In this document: one piece after another, positions 13,128 through 37,596 of the stretch
How the letters are laid out: the number at the start of each line of letters is the position of its first letter
How positions within the stretch are numbered: position 1 is the stretch's first letter
NCBI RefSeq assembly: GCF_029478095.1
Contig: NZ_JAKOAV010000008.1
Span: forward strand, 1-64,000
Direction: 5' to 3'
DNA: 64,000 bases
From: Pelotomaculum isophthalicicum JI
Lineage (GTDB): Bacteria; Bacillota; Desulfotomaculia; Desulfotomaculales; Pelotomaculaceae
Notes under the pieces: generated by a model
Database searches by the model: none
Seen by the model: only the letters and a program-made list of their open reading frames with translations
Told to the model about the DNA's origin: nothing
Program-made: the position numbers and the translations under genes

Positions 13128-15185
13128 TTAGCAGGAGCTATTTTTACTTATTTGCATTAGACTTTTCACTAGCTGGTTGGCGTTGTGTTTTTGCCTATAT
13201 TTAATGGTAAATTCCTGAGCTGTCCGTTGATAGTGTGGATAATTATCAATCATATCCCCCATTAGCTTCGGAATCTGTTCTGGAGATGAATAAGCAAGGC
13301 CTATAACACCTAAAGGTAATTTCTCAGATATGGAATCTTTTTTAATAAAATTAAGTGTAATATCAGAAATAGTAATGGTAAAGTCTCCAAAAGCATTACT
13401 GAAACCCAGCCATATTCTCTTTGAAAGCGGGTCAATTCGAACCAACCCTGAAACATTTCTTGTAATATTTCTACCTAAAACAAAAGAATGGCTTGAGATA
13501 GATCTTTTATACTGGTCAAGCTGGTCTACGTATACTTCCGCATACACCCCAGGCCGGGTTGTTTCATCAAAGCAAAAAGATATCAGAAGATTTCCCGCTC
13601 CTTCAGGTATATCCATCCAGCAAAATGATTTTGCAGACCTACCCCCGAATATCAGGTTACTCTTAGTCATAGGATTTAATTTTTTATTACCTAAATTTGC
13701 CCACTTCAATTTATTCCCATCTATATTCTGGATACTCTCCATTGTTCGGCTTATTTCTTTATGGTATTTATAGGTTTCATGGATAAACTCTTCCACCAGC
13801 CATGTACCTGCGGGCACGATAACCGGTTTGCCCGCGATTAAAAACTCAACCAGCGCGCCTGAACTTCTCGCGTAATAATTATCCTTGTCATAAAACAGAA
13901 GACCGATATCACCGGAAAGTATAAGATTGCAATATTCATCCGATGAAAGAGGCCTTTTAATTACTTGAATCTTATCATCAGGCATTATTTCCAACTGGTC
14001 TCTGGCAAAGACTATATCCGCATTATTTTCTAACCGTGTAAAAGCAAAATTTGATTGAAGGAGAAAACTGAGTTTTCCGGCATCAACATAATCCTCCCAA
14101 AGATCCCGAATGATTCCAGGTAAATATTGATACCCCTTTTCCCGCCTGGCGTCCCCGGCATATACTGCCTTAAGTGGATATCCTTTTTCTTTTTGAGCCA
14201 TATATTCCTGAAATCTGTTGTTAACCGGTATGGGTAAAGTATTAAATTGAAAGATATTAAGACTGTTGTATTGGGTCGTTAACTTTTCAGTATCGGTAAA
14301 AAAACATACCTTTTGACCAGAAAGATTATTTTTAAAATGCAAAAAGGCGTTACGTAAGGGCTTAATATTATTTCTCTGGGTCAGGTACTCTGGTTCCCTG
14401 CCAAAATATAAATTTCTTCTAAACACCAGGTTCCATGACGGTTTAATTGAATCATTTTTTTTCTTCTTAAAGTAGTCGAGTAGGCCCATTAAATCAACTT
14501 CAGACAAAGTTGGAATGAATATTATATCTTCATTTTCCAGTTTAACCCGTTCGAATAAATTTTCGGTAGCCTTTCTAAAAGCTCTAATTCTTCTTAACTG
14601 ATGAATATAAAAGATTAACTTACCTTTGTACTTTATAACAGCGATCAGAGGATGGATAATAACCTTGATAAAATTCAAAAATTCTTTCAATACATTTCCA
14701 ATATAGCCTGTTTTAAACGGATAAAAGATTACATTAAGTAAACTTCTAAATCCTTTTGCAATCTTCGTTAAATAAATAAGTGGAATAAGGATAAAAAACC
14801 ATGTAACAAGCTGACGTGCATTATAAGACTGCGAAAATAACAATTCCTTGTATTGATTTCTGACTAGCCATAGGAACCCCACAGATGAATACCCAAGAGA
14901 TAATTTTAACCTTACTTTAATTGAATTAATCTTACTTTTAATCTTTTCAAAAAAACTGTATTGTTTATAAATGGTCCTGGATAGTCCCCAAAAATCATAT
15001 TTATAAACAGGGTATACATCAGCAATATATTCTGTCTCACTTCTATCCAACTTAAAATCTCGGTTTGTTGCTAAAATAGTTTTTAATCCTTCTTCTTTGG
15101 CAGCCCGAAGAACATGAACGGCATATTCGTAATAATGACCACCAAATTCACGAATTGAGTGGTCAATTAATATGAACTTAGGCAT
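13128..15185 (-). CDS. Long GT-B-like glycosyltransferase with C-terminal beta domain
   Basis: This is a 685-aa protein. The N-terminus MPKFILIDHSIREFGGHYYEYAVHVL resembles GT4 N-domains; a hydrophobic patch lies near 125-165 and a basic helical insert near 185-225. The nucleotide-sugar half (about 330-480) includes KAVYAGDARREKGYQYLP and SSGALVEFLIAGKPVIVPAGTW. A further beta-rich segment (about 525-630) and a short C-terminal GT-like helix block (IPKLMGDMIDNYPHYQRTAQEF) follow. The interrupted GT domain with an inserted beta-sandwich is unusual. It overlaps the FkbM gene by 19 nt. Confidence 0.75.
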   Translation of the reverse strand: MPKFILIDHSIREFGGHYYEYAVHVLRAAKEEGLKTILATNRDFKLDRSETEYIADVYPVYKYDFWGLSRTIYKQYSFFEKIKSKINSIKVRLKLSLGYSSVGFLWLVRNQYKELLFSQSYNARQLVTWFFILIPLIYLTKIAKGFRSLLNVIFYPFKTGYIGNVLKEFLNFIKVIIHPLIAVIKYKGKLIFYIHQLRRIRAFRKATENLFERVKLENEDIIFIPTLSEVDLMGLLDYFKKKKNDSIKPSWNLVFRRNLYFGREPEYLTQRNNIKPLRNAFLHFKNNLSGQKVCFFTDTEKLTTQYNSLNIFQFNTLPIPVNNRFQEYMAQKEKGYPLKAVYAGDARREKGYQYLPGIIRDLWEDYVDAGKLSFLLQSNFAFTRLENNADIVFARDQLEIMPDDKIQVIKRPLSSDEYCNLILSGDIGLLFYDKDNYYARSSGALVEFLIAGKPVIVPAGTWLVEEFIHETYKYHKEISRTMESIQNIDGNKLKWANLGNKKLNPMTKSNLIFGGRSAKSFCWMDIPEGAGNLLISFCFDETTRPGVYAEVYVDQLDQYKRSISSHSFVLGRNITRNVSGLVRIDPLSKRIWLGFSNAFGDFTITISDITLNFIKKDSISEKLPLGVIGLAYSSPEQIPKLMGDMIDNYPHYQRTAQEFTIKYRQKHNANQLVKSLMQISKNSSC

Positions 15186-30725: not shown

Positions 30726-32396
30726 CTAATTCGCTGTGTTCATGTCCGGCTCCAACTCTGTTTCGTTATCGCAACCCGGCTTAAATGCCACAAAAAAAGT
30801 AGTTCCCGTTGGGCCGGTTTTTACATTGATAGCTGCGTTGTGCCTGGCCACGATGCTGTAACACACGGACAGCCCCAGGCCTGTCCCGTTTTCTTTGGTA
30901 GTAAAGAAAGGATCACCGATTTTATCAAGCACATCGGGTTCGATGCCCGGGCCTTGATCCTGCACCGATAAAACCACCTCATCACCGTCCATAAATGTCC
31001 CGACGGTCAAGTTCCCGCCGGGTGACATCGCTTCCAGCCCATTTCTAACAAGGTTTAAAATAAGCTGGCGCATTTCCCTTTCATCCAGGAATAAATCTGA
31101 AATATCTCCAAGCTCAAATTTTATATTTTTATCGAAGTTTATCGCATCAGCCAGGATTAAAGGTGATAAAGCTTCCACTATTGAATTAAGATTCTGCATT
31201 TTGAAATTCACCACCCTGTTTCTGGCCAGGGAAAGGTACTCCGTTATTATCGAATTCGCTCTATCCAGTTCTTCGACCATCAGATTAAAGTATCCCCTAT
31301 GTTTAATATACTCATCTTTTCTTTGAAGCATTTGTAAGAAACCGCGCACCGTGGTCATCGGGTTTCTTATTTCGTGGCCGATACCGGCGGCCATTTCTCC
31401 AACCAGGTGCATCCGCTCCAGCCGCTCCATTTCCTTTTCAACTTTTTTACGTTCGGTGATGTCTTCCGCGATTTTAATAAAATTAGTGATTGCGCCATCG
31501 GGGTTTCTAAAAGGCGAAATGGTGGCAAATTCCCAGTAATCATCACCGTTTTTCTTCTTGTTGCAGAATTCACCCTGCCATACACCGCCCGATTGAATTA
31601 CCTCCCAAAATTTTTCGAATTCATCAGAAGCAAGCCCGCCGGGTTTCAACTCTTTTCCGATGGCGTTATCATATGGATAACCAGTTATTTCAGTAAATCT
31701 CGGATTGACATACTCGATTTTGCCTTCTGTATCTAAAATCATAATGATATTTGGACTTTGCTCGACGACACTGGACAATTTCTGATTTTGCCGCTCCGTC
31801 TGTTTCCTATGTTCAATCTCTTCATTGAGAGATAATATGTTCTCTTTTAACTGCTCCTGGTACTGCACATTATTATCTATTAGCACGCCGACAAACCAGC
31901 CGACTATGTACATAATACTGATCATGATTAAACTTGATTCAAAAGCCTGAAAGAAATACATACCTTTGGCAATCATTTCATAAACAACTATGAAAAAGGA
32001 ACAAACAGTGGACATCACTATGCCAGCCGTTTTGCCCATAACTGAGGCGGCGAATAAGACCGGGAGGATAAACACTACTTTTAAGTAAAAAATATTTTCT
32101 TTCTCGATAAACAAAGTAGTTATCGCTATTAGCAGCGGAAAACTTATATATATAATATTAAATAATGATAAATATTTCCCATCCTTTTGCACTAAATGTT
32201 TTTCCAACTTGTATAACAGGATAATTAACCATATTAAATTCAATGACATGTAAAAGCAAATACTGCCCGTATTATAAGGGTTGATATTATTACCATAAAG
32301 CAATACGCCCAACAATGCGACAATGATACAAAAAATATGCATGATTGACAAATGATTAATTGATTCTTTTTGACTTTCTTTCATTACTCCTGCCAT
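30726..32396 (-). CDS. Membrane PAS sensor histidine kinase
   Basis: This is a 556-aa kinase: five or six N-terminal membrane helices (about 15-185), a coiled coil, one PAS domain (about 205-325, IIMILDTEGKIEYVNPRFTEITGY), HisKA with the phosphoacceptor in GEMAAGIGHEIRNPMTTVRG, and HATPase_c (NGLEAM, DQGPGI, GTGLGLSV). It resembles orphan KinA/B-type sporulation kinases; no response regulator gene is adjacent. It follows the AgrD-like peptide gene and may sense that peptide, although its membrane part is not the AgrC type. AGGAGGTGA precedes the ATG. Confidence 0.9.
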   Translation of the reverse strand: MAGVMKESQKESINHLSIMHIFCIIVALLGVLLYGNNINPYNTGSICFYMSLNLIWLIILLYKLEKHLVQKDGKYLSLFNIIYISFPLLIAITTLFIEKENIFYLKVVFILPVLFAASVMGKTAGIVMSTVCSFFIVVYEMIAKGMYFFQAFESSLIMISIMYIVGWFVGVLIDNNVQYQEQLKENILSLNEEIEHRKQTERQNQKLSSVVEQSPNIIMILDTEGKIEYVNPRFTEITGYPYDNAIGKELKPGGLASDEFEKFWEVIQSGGVWQGEFCNKKKNGDDYWEFATISPFRNPDGAITNFIKIAEDITERKKVEKEMERLERMHLVGEMAAGIGHEIRNPMTTVRGFLQMLQRKDEYIKHRGYFNLMVEELDRANSIITEYLSLARNRVVNFKMQNLNSIVEALSPLILADAINFDKNIKFELGDISDLFLDEREMRQLILNLVRNGLEAMSPGGNLTVGTFMDGDEVVLSVQDQGPGIEPDVLDKIGDPFFTTKENGTGLGLSVCYSIVARHNAAINVKTGPTGTTFFVAFKPGCDNETELEPDMNTAN

Positions 32397-32436
32397 TTCA
32401 ATATATCACCTCCTGATGTTACGCGTTAAAATGTAT

Positions 32437-32462
32437 AAGGAGGCGGGGAAAACCACCTCCTT
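32437..32462 (-). terminator. Hairpin between peptide gene and kinase gene
   Basis: AAGGAGG and CCTCCTT form a perfect 7-bp stem between the stop codon of the AgrD-like gene and the kinase start. No long T run follows on the minus strand, so it may be a partial terminator or RNA-stabilising hairpin that sets peptide transcript levels above kinase levels. Confidence 0.45.
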
Positions 32463-32471
32463 ACCTTTTGG

Positions 32472-32594
32472 CTACCTTCTTAGCGACTCAGGCACCTCTG
32501 GTTGGTAAGACCCTATACCACAAGCAGACGCTGATGTTATACTCGCGAGCAGCAGCAACACTGTGACCGCAAATGCAAATAATTTGTGTTTCAT
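32472..32594 (-). CDS. AgrD-like cyclic autoinducer peptide precursor
   Basis: This 40-aa ORF starts MKHKLFAFAVTVLLLL and ends CGIGSYQPEVPESLRR. The layout is that of clostridial cyclic lactone autoinducer (AgrD) precursors: a hydrophobic leader, a cysteine, a short core, and the conserved acidic/proline tail (Q/E)PE(V/L)PxxLR. Aligning PEVP with the staphylococcal tail would place the ring at CGIGS, but the cut site is uncertain. GGGGGTGA precedes the ATG. No agrB is present nearby. A lipoprotein or Sec-cleaved peptide (SASA|C) is an alternative reading. It lies between two membrane-protein genes and a histidine kinase on one strand. Confidence 0.75.
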   Translation of the reverse strand: MKHKLFAFAVTVLLLLASITSASACGIGSYQPEVPESLRR

Positions 32595-32621
32595 AACATT
32601 TCACCCCCTTCCATGCCTAGT

Positions 32622-33086
32622 CTATATTTCCCACGCGTCTTTATCAGGTTTTTTAAATTTTGAAATTATTACGGCGAATAAAATCATTAGAATGGCCTGC
32701 GGTAGAGTAATTAATTTCCATAATAAGTAATCTGACAAGAATACCTGTTGATCTAGTTTTGTGATCAAAAAAAATGATTTATTTATCACCAATTCCAATA
32801 TCGCCAAGGTAGTAAAACTCGCAAAGGCGGCAATAAAACTATTTAACTGTGTAGTCCTGGTGGCTTTTATAATAAAAAGGGCCAATAATAATGTAGCAGC
32901 AACTGAATGAAGACCAAAAGAATTTAGAGGTAGAGATCTTATTATAAAAATTATTATAGTCAGTGCCGTGCCGGCCACCGCTATGATTCTCCAGCGAAGC
33001 GGCACCCCGGCCAAAGCCAAACCAAAAGCCACAGTACCCATAATTTCAGGGATACCTTGCATAAAAAACAACAGTGTCTTTTCCAT
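32622..33086 (-). CDS. Cysteine-free membrane protein, QGIPE family, copy 2
   Basis: This 154-aa protein has about five membrane helices, beginning MEKTLLFFMQGIPEIMG and ending with a charged tail KFKKPDKDAWEI. It is a close paralogue of the next gene upstream (same length, same first and last motifs). It contains no cysteine, so it cannot be an AgrB-type thiol protease. I do not recognise a named family. Its position directly before the AgrD-like gene suggests a role in peptide export, sensing or immunity. GGAGTGGACTGACAG precedes the ATG. Confidence 0.8.
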   Translation of the reverse strand: MEKTLLFFMQGIPEIMGTVAFGLALAGVPLRWRIIAVAGTALTIIIFIIRSLPLNSFGLHSVAATLLLALFIIKATRTTQLNSFIAAFASFTTLAILELVINKSFFLITKLDQQVFLSDYLLWKLITLPQAILMILFAVIISKFKKPDKDAWEI

Positions 33087-33128
33087 CTGTCAGTCCACTC
33101 CAACTTTTATAATTTTAGAGAAATCAAC

Positions 33129-33590
33129 TCATATTCTCCACGCGTCTCTGTCGGGTGCTTTATACTTTGAAATTATCAATGCAAATAAAATCATCAGTAT
33201 AGCCTGCGGCAGGCCGACCAATTTCCACAACAATTCATTTGATACGAAAACTTGTTGATCGAGTTTTGTGATAAGAAGAAACAATTTAATAATTACAAAT
33301 TCCAATGTCGCCAGAGTGGTAAAACTCGCAATAGCGGCAAAAAAACTATTCATTGCTGTAATCCGGGTGGTTTTAATGATAAATACAGCTAAGAGCAAAA
33401 TTACCATAACCATATGAATACCAAAAGTTATTTGCACGGATCTAATCACATAAATTATTATGGTCAGCACCGTACCGGTCGCCGTGACGATCCTCCAGCG
33501 AAGCGGCACCCTGACCAGGGCCAAACCAAACGCCACTACACCCGTTATTTCAGGGATGCCTTGCATAAAAAACAGCAGAATCTTTTCCAT
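33129..33590 (-). CDS. Cysteine-free membrane protein, QGIPE family, copy 1
   Basis: This 153-aa paralogue of the following gene starts MEKILLFFMQGIPEITG and ends KYKAPDRDAWRI, with PLRWRI, TKLDQQVF and LPQAILMILFA also shared. The two probably arose by tandem duplication and may form a heterodimer. It has about five helices and no cysteine. It is the first gene of the peptide-kinase set; a TTCGACA is found about 100 bp upstream. The function is unknown. Confidence 0.8.
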   Translation of the reverse strand: MEKILLFFMQGIPEITGVVAFGLALVRVPLRWRIVTATGTVLTIIIYVIRSVQITFGIHMVMVILLLAVFIIKTTRITAMNSFFAAIASFTTLATLEFVIIKLFLLITKLDQQVFVSNELLWKLVGLPQAILMILFALIISKYKAPDRDAWRI

Positions 33591-33819: not shown

Positions 33820-34170
33820 TTGGTTGACAAGGAGAATTTGAAGGAGTTAAGCAAATGGGCCGGTTTTGTCGGTATCATGACAATTATTTTCGGTGCGATA
33901 TCAGCGATTGGAGGTCTTTTCGCGTTCATTATTGGCGCGATTCCTGGAATTATAGCGATAATACTTGGCATAAAGTTGCGCAACACAAAGCTATACGCTG
34001 ATGAACTTTTGGCCGGCGAACAGGATGAAACAAAATTGAATATGCTTTTTATGAATCTAAACACTTATTTTAAAATACAAGGAATTTTAATAATCATATC
34101 CCTGGCGTTTATGATTCTTGGTATGCTGACGGGTGTTTTCGCGGGTTTTGCCTTTAGACACATTTTTTAA
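33820..34170 (+). CDS. DUF5362-like small membrane protein
   Basis: This 116-aa protein starts at a TTG behind GGAGGTG. Residues 12-50 form a membrane hairpin (WAGFVGIMTIIFGAISAIGGLF, GAIPGIIAIILGIKL), a charged linker with an ELLAGEQDET stretch follows, and a second hairpin (about 80-116) ends the protein. The pattern matches the DUF5362 membrane family, whose function is unknown. It is transcribed divergently from the peptide locus. Confidence 0.7.
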   Translation: MVDKENLKELSKWAGFVGIMTIIFGAISAIGGLFAFIIGAIPGIIAIILGIKLRNTKLYADELLAGEQDETKLNMLFMNLNTYFKIQGILIIISLAFMILGMLTGVFAGFAFRHIF

Positions 34171-34176
34171 ATTCGA

Positions 34177-34222
34177 CCATGTGGTCATGCAGCTTTACGC
34201 ACTTGGCATTGTGGATGTATTT
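34177..34222 (+). pseudogene. Fragment duplicating part of the gene at 37327
   Basis: This 46-nt stretch encodes DHVVMQLYALGIVDV, the same peptide as the middle of the 89-aa gene at 37327-37596, with a few synonymous differences. It is a remnant of a paralogue, and the neighbouring HD gene uses its antisense for its last codons (STMPSA). Confidence 0.6.
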
Positions 34223-34746
34223 TTCTGTATCACTTTTGTTAACGCATCCATTATTTGAACTGGCGCAAATTGTTCCACTTGTGATAATGCAAATTCGGAA
34301 GATAAAGCTTCGCCGGGGATGAATTCATGCCTATTAATTATCGCGTCATAGACGTCACAAGCTCCAATTATCAACATCTCTAAAGCCGGTTCTTGCAGAC
34401 CGTCGGGATAACCGCCGCCTCCTGGCCGCTCATGATGACCACGAACCAAGGCATTTATAAATTCCGGCGATTTTGGCCATATTTCATCAAGTATATTTAA
34501 AGAAGCGATGGGATGAGCAGTAATCACCGCCCAATCAGAAGGTTCTATTGGAAATTTAGTTAATAGTTCAGGCGGCCATGTGGTTTTTCCTAGATCATGC
34601 AGGTAAGCCGCCAATGTTATTTTTTTGTGATTAGACATATGCAGAAGCGAAGTAACCGCATATGTCAGGTTGGCAACCCTTCTGCAATGACCCTCAACCA
34701 GTGGATAAATAAGAAGAGTTTTCTTGGCGATATCAACCACGTCCAT
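34195..34746 (-). CDS. HD-domain phosphohydrolase (HD-GYP-like)
   Basis: This 183-aa protein has the HD-GYP core: LAAYLHDLGKTTWP with the HD pair, ITAHP, and GHHERPGGGGYPDGL. The last resembles the HHE...G(Y)P region of c-di-GMP phosphodiesterases. It lacks a sensor domain and is short. The C-terminus runs into the duplicated fragment at 34177, so the original ending may be lost. GGGAGATGATTCA precedes the ATG. Confidence 0.78.
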   Translation of the reverse strand: MDVVDIAKKTLLIYPLVEGHCRRVANLTYAVTSLLHMSNHKKITLAAYLHDLGKTTWPPELLTKFPIEPSDWAVITAHPIASLNILDEIWPKSPEFINALVRGHHERPGGGGYPDGLQEPALEMLIIGACDVYDAIINRHEFIPGEALSSEFALSQVEQFAPVQIMDALTKVIQKNTSTMPSA

Positions 34747-37326: not shown

Positions 37327-37596
37327 ATGTTTCCATCACTTGCTGAATACTTTCAAACAGTGCAAAAGCGCTTGCCGGAAGAAGCGGAAAGAGTAATCAA
37401 ATCCTTGGAAGACAGCGGTCCAATGAATAAGGAGGATTTATCACTCACCGCCAAAGTTAAAAGAGCCGTTTTAGATCATGTAGTCATGCAGCTTTACGCG
37501 CTAGGCATTGTGGACGTCAGCACCGAAGGAAAAAGCAAGATATGCAGTCTGACAAAATTGGGTTATGAATTTTTCAGCTTAAAGGATGCCGTTTAA
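37327..37596 (+). CDS. Small winged-helix-like protein
   Basis: This 89-aa protein has a helical N-terminus (EYFQTVQKRLPEEAERVIKSLED) and a likely winged-helix core (MNKEDLSLTAKVKRAVLDHVVMQLYALGIVDVSTEGKSKICSLTKLGYEFF). It has no neighbour with an obvious partner role. A 46-nt piece of a paralogue is at 34177. Its 3' end is within a terminator hairpin. Confidence 0.6.
   Translation: MFPSLAEYFQTVQKRLPEEAERVIKSLEDSGPMNKEDLSLTAKVKRAVLDHVVMQLYALGIVDVSTEGKSKICSLTKLGYEFFSLKDAV

Follow-up and report, generated by a model that had tools for sequence, protein, structure and literature searches.

The peptide locus at positions 30,726 to 33,590 of the window (the 64,000-nucleotide stretch of the Pelotomaculum isophthalicicum JI genome analyzed here) is probably a split agr-type signalling operon, in which an orphan AgrB encoded on another contig would act in trans on AgrD. 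We favour this reading because agrB belongs to the operon in most related loci (24 of 29) and because the orphan agrB, found beside yifB and rimO, falls in the same AgrB clade. The proposed action in trans is well supported by the position, the clade and the selection of the orphan gene. The seeming puzzle of an AgrD without an AgrB would then become testable, as a split operon whose processing enzyme acts in trans.

All four open reading frames were confirmed on the minus strand, with intergenic gaps of 75, 27 and 42 bases going from the kinase gene to qgipe1. Two membrane proteins of the QGIPE family are encoded by qgipe1 (33129..33590; 153 aa, five hydrophobic segments) and its paralogue qgipe2 (32622..33086; 154 aa), the latter occupying the position that agrB holds in most relatives. 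Beside them lie agrD (32472..32594), which encodes a 40-aa cyclic autoinducer precursor, and the gene of a 556-aa PAS histidine kinase (30726..32396; ORF and domain search). Much of the original prediction is borne out: the 40-aa gene is AgrD-like, the two membrane proteins are paralogues (72% identity) without a single cysteine, neither of them is an AgrB, and the kinase, with its PAS, HisKA and HATPase_c domains, is not of the AgrC type. According to the ORF list and the annotation of the locus no AgrB lies between its genes, so that agrD has no adjacent agrB, and no response regulator is linked to the kinase at the locus. The description "without AgrB" therefore fits the locus only: in the genome as a whole six AgrB matches exceed the cut-off, and four of these are full-length.

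The operon in relatives and the orphan agrB

Stretches around AgrD, QGIPE or AgrB matches were annotated in 25 genomes of the family using purpose-built profiles. QGIPE was found in 21 of these genomes, AgrD in 22 and AgrB in 22. When a window-type kinase is defined by a membrane-domain score above 100, 29 loci qualify, of which 24 contain agrB and five do not; L099 (kinase score 54, with agrB) is left out of this count, and L114 is counted as containing the gene, of which it shows part where its contig ends. The usual gene order in the 24 loci is qgipe-agrB-agrD-kinase. Departures concern L097, without agrD, and L146 and L114, without qgipe in the stretch examined; the agrD genes of L112, L114, L115 and L116 were detected by TIGR04223 only. 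The five agrB-less loci are the window locus, a second place in the same genome on contig C19, L082 of P. terephthalicicum JT (G016), L098 of G023 and L101 of P. propionicicum MGP (G011). L082 shows the same layout as the window locus, and on C19 (L025) an agrD ending in …ACIWCSYQPEVPASLRK is followed by a paralogous kinase.

Loci of the type qgipe-agrB-agrD-PAS kinase occur in Pelotomaculum, Desulfoscipio and related bacteria and are direct relatives of the window locus. Among 20 loci from named genomes, many at the same places as the 29, agrB is in place in 18, whereas it is absent from the window locus and from two of the 20 (L122 of P. terephthalicicum and L132 of P. propionicicum). Neither the operon type nor QGIPE was found described in the titles and abstract openings listed by searches of open-access papers. 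The suggestion that the locus represents an undescribed kind of signalling system is not supported: most relatives carry agrB in the same operon, an outcome that the original prediction had itself named as counting against it, and the orphan agrB occupies an apparently ancestral site.

The genome of the window is a draft assembly of 93 contigs (99.95% complete). Its six PF04647 matches comprise full-length AgrBs on C7, C4, C31 and C65, a fragment on C49 and a remnant within a longer frame on C2, while AgrD matches over the cut-off are seen on C49, C65, C19 and in the window, with a weak one on C7. Several of these copies look damaged: on C49 the regulator is broken by a transposase-like ORF next to the AgrB fragment, on C2 an AgrC-like kinase runs into the AgrB remnant, and on C31 qgipe is shortened.

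The copy of most interest is the orphan agrB on C4 (L021, 4478-5110), a contig separate from that of the window in this draft assembly. Its product exceeds the PF04647 cut-off and contains the motif GGAHSNSPWRC (GGAHx6C), in which the histidine and cysteine are spaced like the catalytic residues of AgrB; an AgrB with this motif thus exists in the genome. The orphan gene and its copies in G015 and P. terephthalicicum (G016) are flanked by rimO/pgsA and yifB (names via NCBIfam), and no agrD was detected beside any of the three. In Pelotomaculum sp. PtaU1.Bin035 (G009, L085), yifB and rimO enclose a complete qgipe-agrB-agrD-kinase operon, and the pgsA, rimO, yifB, yraN and rnhB around it share 77-84% identity with their counterparts around the orphan agrB. 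The orphan site looks like the ancestral one. The relative orientation of yifB is opposite at the two sites, so that the rearrangement must have gone beyond a simple excision.

The AgrB tree (44 rows, covering AgrBs of at least 120 bits and 190-260 aa) places the orphans of the window's genome, G015 and G016, which all carry GGAHx6C, in a clade of 23 rows with support 100/99. The remaining rows of this clade are 19 AgrBs from loci with a window-type kinase, together with L086, and within it a group of 12 rows has support 89/92. Support is weak (85/56) for a pairing of the orphans with the AgrB of G009. In a bit-score ranking over 23 loci L090 and L146 match the orphan AgrB best, with the G009 copy third; by identity G009 comes first outside the genus (64% against 59%). 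All four genomes with an agrB-less locus (G000, which is that of the window, G016, G011 and G023) have an AgrB of the 23-row clade elsewhere. Over the 23 loci the similarities to the kinase and to the orphan AgrB gave no support for co-evolution (rank correlation rho 0.23, p 0.29).

Taken together, the ancestral gene order would have been qgipe-agrB-agrD-kinase. In the lineage of the window and P. terephthalicicum, agrB would have stayed at its old site between rimO and yifB, and the duplicated qgipe, agrD and the kinase gene would have come to be placed elsewhere. The original prediction had called for either a distant AgrB or a new mechanism; the same-clade orphan on another contig points to the first, and the second is not supported. 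The three other full-length AgrBs of the genome are alternative candidates for the processing.

QGIPE proteins, kinase and peptide sensing

QGIPE accompanies agrB and has no convincing match in Pfam or NCBIfam. Neither window protein matched Pfam or NCBIfam at E up to 1, and no relative was found in PHROGs. A Pfam DUF5134 match in one of 26 QGIPE relatives (E 0.0061) and a DUF4149 match of the C7 relative (E 0.0057, under the cut-off) were both taken as chance, and the identity of QGIPE as AgrB was rejected given that PF04647 and the rest of Pfam give no match and cysteines are absent. Sequence comparison with solved structures gave no match at E up to 1. The AlphaFold model of qgipe1 is of high quality (mean pLDDT 93), but none of its 36 Foldseek matches among solved structures reaches E 0.001, and VIA-align yields middling Z values only (best 6.5), which are uninformative either way. 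In a viral fold library QGIPE has one match, a protein of phage ctOSJ35 (TM 0.59 but E 0.89), a mere hint; the AgrB of the same phage is listed at rank 5 of that search. A tblastn search with the L173 QGIPE gave one weak match on a Klebsiella plasmid and none in phages.

Qgipe1 is 78.4% identical to its ortholog in L082, and the two window proteins pair one-to-one with the G016 copies in the tree (four rows, 100/98), which implies that the duplication precedes the split between the window and P. terephthalicicum. We considered deriving the pair from the two G009 copies on either side of yifB and dropped the idea, as the tree places the duplication in the lineage shared by the window's genome and P. 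terephthalicicum.

QGIPE also occurs in fusions. A search with a single QGIPE query retrieved copies within six frames of 455-536 aa (E 9.4e-11 to 2.8e-5), all marked as AgrC-like kinases by our profiles. In the fused frame examined in full (L084), the QGIPE part forms the first four hydrophobic segments and is followed by SPOB_a and HATPase_c_5; this frame is co-linear with the NCBIfam AgrC model (59.7 bits, cut-off 500), and its QGIPE domain taken alone matched no NCBIfam model. By sequence search QGIPE is homologous to the N-terminal domain, the sensor half, of the family's agr-linked AgrC-like kinases; homology to the sensor domain of staphylococcal AgrC itself is at most putative. In other loci QGIPE is encoded separately, immediately before or close to the gene of a shorter AgrC-like kinase. 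One such split kinase, that of L023, was compared with the AgrC model: it aligns only over positions 139-395 (31.8 bits, cut-off 500), and a QGIPE gene immediately precedes it, so that QGIPE stands where the first part of AgrC would be. From these arrangements we infer that QGIPE is a detachable receptor half of an AgrC-like kinase.

Of the three roles proposed originally for these proteins (exporter, receptor or immunity factor), the fusions favour the receptor; the other two are less favoured. It is rather unlikely that the QGIPE proteins are exporters or immunity (quenching) factors and that the membrane domain of the kinase is the sole receptor. The kinase does have a membrane domain of its own, with six hydrophobic segments (aa 16-173) conserved among relatives of the locus, and the window QGIPE copies are not fused to it. 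Such roles do not readily account for loci in which QGIPE makes up the four N-terminal helices of an AgrC-like kinase, or for the L023 kinase, which aligns with the AgrC model only from position 139 on.

Of 398 genomes sampled across the phylum, 109 contain QGIPE, that of the window included. In 44 of 49 loci inspected, agrB was found near QGIPE within the stretches examined (27 of the 29 best-scoring and 17 of 20 lower-scoring loci; the latter were hand-chosen, so the sample is not random, and some overlap the named loci). Among the exceptions, L171 resembles the window locus in having two qgipes, agrD and a kinase but no agrB within a short stretch. It is conceivable, and we offer it tentatively, that QGIPE is a portable receptor module for autoinducing peptides across Bacillota, fused to or split from AgrC-like kinases or paired with unrelated PAS kinases. 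If true, the module would name the missing receptor part of clostridial agr loci that have no recognizable agrC, and answer which protein senses the peptide there.

Behind its membrane domain, for which the predicted model is of low quality (pLDDT 72), the window kinase contains PAS (215-315), HisKA (333-393) and HATPase_c (438-538). The AgrC core SPOB_a/HATPase_c_5 was not detected in it by Pfam search; two agr-linked kinases that do have this layout are encoded on C65 of the window's genome and in P. terephthalicicum (G016). The kinase scores 161.6 bits with the KinD model, far below the cut-off of 775. In the split-operon reading, the QGIPE proteins and the kinase membrane domain would together sense the exported peptide at the membrane, and the kinase would pass phosphate to an unlinked regulator. 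The likeliest candidate is Spo0A, reached via a phosphorelay, because two Spo0A genes over the cut-off are present in the genome and a phosphorelay has, according to a review, been verified in Desulfotomaculum acetoxidans (PMC11210211).

Peptide maturation, selection and the hairpin

By profile the window peptide is an AgrD (TIGR04223, 36.2 bits, E 4.7e-9, curated cut-off 19). Its C25 and its tail YQPEVPESLRR align with 27 other AgrDs, providing both a ring residue and a conserved C-terminal tail. Two objections raised beforehand, that the peptide might be a lipoprotein or unconserved, find no backing in the data. A lipobox has L, V or I at -3; the peptide reads S-A-S-A-C, with A at -3, and shows no good lipobox by eye. 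The sequence is 92.5% identical in a congener, with a low dN/dS, and this conservation together with the profile match makes it more than a chance reading frame. The ring is most likely the pentapeptide C25-G26-I27-G28-S29, closed as a thiolactone and followed by Y30 and P35, because of the alignment and numbering comparison with Clo1313_2818 (see below). Cut and cyclised in trans by the orphan AgrB, AgrD would yield this small thiolactone, C-G-I-G-S; in the P. terephthalicicum precursor C-G-G-G-A takes its place. A C. perfringens-like AgrD pattern matched in none of 45 genomes.

It might be argued that the peptide matures independently of AgrB, either through a signal peptidase cut after SASA that leaves a linear CGIGSYQPEVPESLRR peptide or through processing of AgrD by the QGIPE proteins. 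The leader ends in SASA-C and by eye resembles a Sec signal peptide, QGIPE has invariant E14, H59, E97 and Q129, and agrB-less loci recur (five of 29 in the family, plus L171 and L190 outside it, within the stretches examined). We consider this route improbable. Since 44 of the 49 loci inspected have agrB near QGIPE, QGIPE is no substitute for AgrB in them, and other loci carry it fused to kinases. Furthermore, the C-terminal tail of AgrD is required by AgrB in known systems, and in the alignment the tail YQPEVPxSLR is retained at the agrB-less window locus, L082, L025 and L101, with L098 coming close to it.

Purifying selection acts on the whole set of genes. Between the window's genome and P. 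terephthalicicum, dN/dS (Nei-Gojobori) is 0.156 for the kinase, 0.170 for agrD, 0.193 and 0.214 for the qgipes and 0.182 for the orphan agrB, compared to 0.120 for rimO and 0.085 for yifB. A decaying relic that lost its signalling along with agrB, as the broken agr copies on C49, C2 and C31 might suggest, is therefore hardly likely, since all four frames are intact, with orthologues in P. terephthalicicum at a dN/dS of 0.16-0.21, and a comparable constraint acts on the orphan agrB.

Just 3' of the agrD stop codon lies a predicted RNA hairpin (32435..32464, minus strand) with a 12-bp stem (z -2.42, a folding matched by 3 of 200 shuffles), which is conserved in relatives. Twenty-nine loci were folded, agrD loci outside this set including L095, L099, L105 and L138. 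The alignment covers 25 of them. It leaves out L104, because of an N run behind agrD, L093, which nearly duplicates L089, and both L130 and L133, whose comparable hairpin occurs about 70 bases further downstream. In the alignment 94.8% of cells are paired, against 52-76% in slid controls. Changes on both sides are seen in seven of ten pairs, covering 26 cells against a shuffle mean of 7.7, a comparison that does not give a probability because the sequences are related. The hairpin resembles an intra-operon terminator or attenuator, which would result in more agrD message than kinase message.

Comparison with known systems

As in staphylococcal agr (AgrB-AgrD-AgrC-AgrA), we find an AgrD with a conserved C-terminal tail and, in the genome, a PF04647 AgrB. 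In contrast, agrB, an AgrC-type kinase and AgrA are absent from the window locus, which adds QGIPE proteins and a PAS kinase without a linked regulator.

The closest precedent is Clo1313_2818 of Clostridium thermocellum, an AgrD outside any apparent agr operon, whose cyclic pentapeptide was found in the supernatant with the S25-F29 ring confirmed by LC-MS/MS (PMC5322536). The likeness extends to ring positions 25-29, Y30 and P35, with C25 of the window matching S25 in number, although the ring is a serine lactone there and would involve cysteine here. No AgrB, kinase or regulator is reported for it, whereas candidates for AgrB, kinase and QGIPE can be named here.

In the C. perfringens operon CPE1563-CPE1562-agrB-agrD, two co-transcribed genes annotated without function likewise lie upstream of agrB (PMC2706048). 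Both were present in the sole complementing clone, but this requirement may be no more than a promoter effect. As described there this operon has no kinase; the window locus has one. Finally, orphan sporulation kinases feeding Spo0A, as outlined in the review (PMC11210211), are also HisKA kinases without a linked regulator, but the window kinase differs in being linked to a peptide gene.

Loci without agrB outside the family

In two DNA stretches from outside the family of the window's organism (L190 and L171), qgipe, which encodes the cysteine-free membrane protein QGIPE, lies with agrD and a kinase gene, and no agrB is found within the stretches examined. Therefore agrB may have been lost or displaced several times.

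Altered agr copies

P. isophthalicicum itself (G000) contains a further, apparently broken agr copy on contig C49 (L024, 5481-8216), in which AgrB is only a 91-aa fragment and the response regulator appears, as read by eye, to be interrupted by a transposase-like ORF. Contig C31 (L022, 7195-8152) holds a near-duplicate of the agr locus of contig C65; here qgipe is shortened, and the adjoining ORF, also judged by eye, seems reverse-transcriptase/maturase-like. On contig C2 (L020, 106-1686) the C-terminal end of an AgrB continues the frame of an AgrC-like kinase, and the same is seen in the related genome G015 (L119, 4518-5369); both frames look like the product of a deletion that fused the kinase gene to agrB.

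Phage, plasmid and window observations

A search of the viral fold library BFVD with the QGIPE model gave a single match with TM > 0.5, a protein of Siphoviridae sp. ctOSJ35 (entries A0A8S5PKY4 and A0A8S5PJW7), a phage whose AgrB is also among the matches listed; at E 0.89 this is no more than a hint. A weak QGIPE-like match (26.7% identity) lies at 13982-14416 of NZ_CP061968.1. This record carries no annotation; it is deposited under Klebsiella as a plasmid and is possibly mis-assigned.

Within the window, DHVVMQLYALGIVDV is encoded twice on the + strand (34133-34258 and 37327-37596), which looks like a partial duplication; one copy overlaps the end of the DUF5362 gene.
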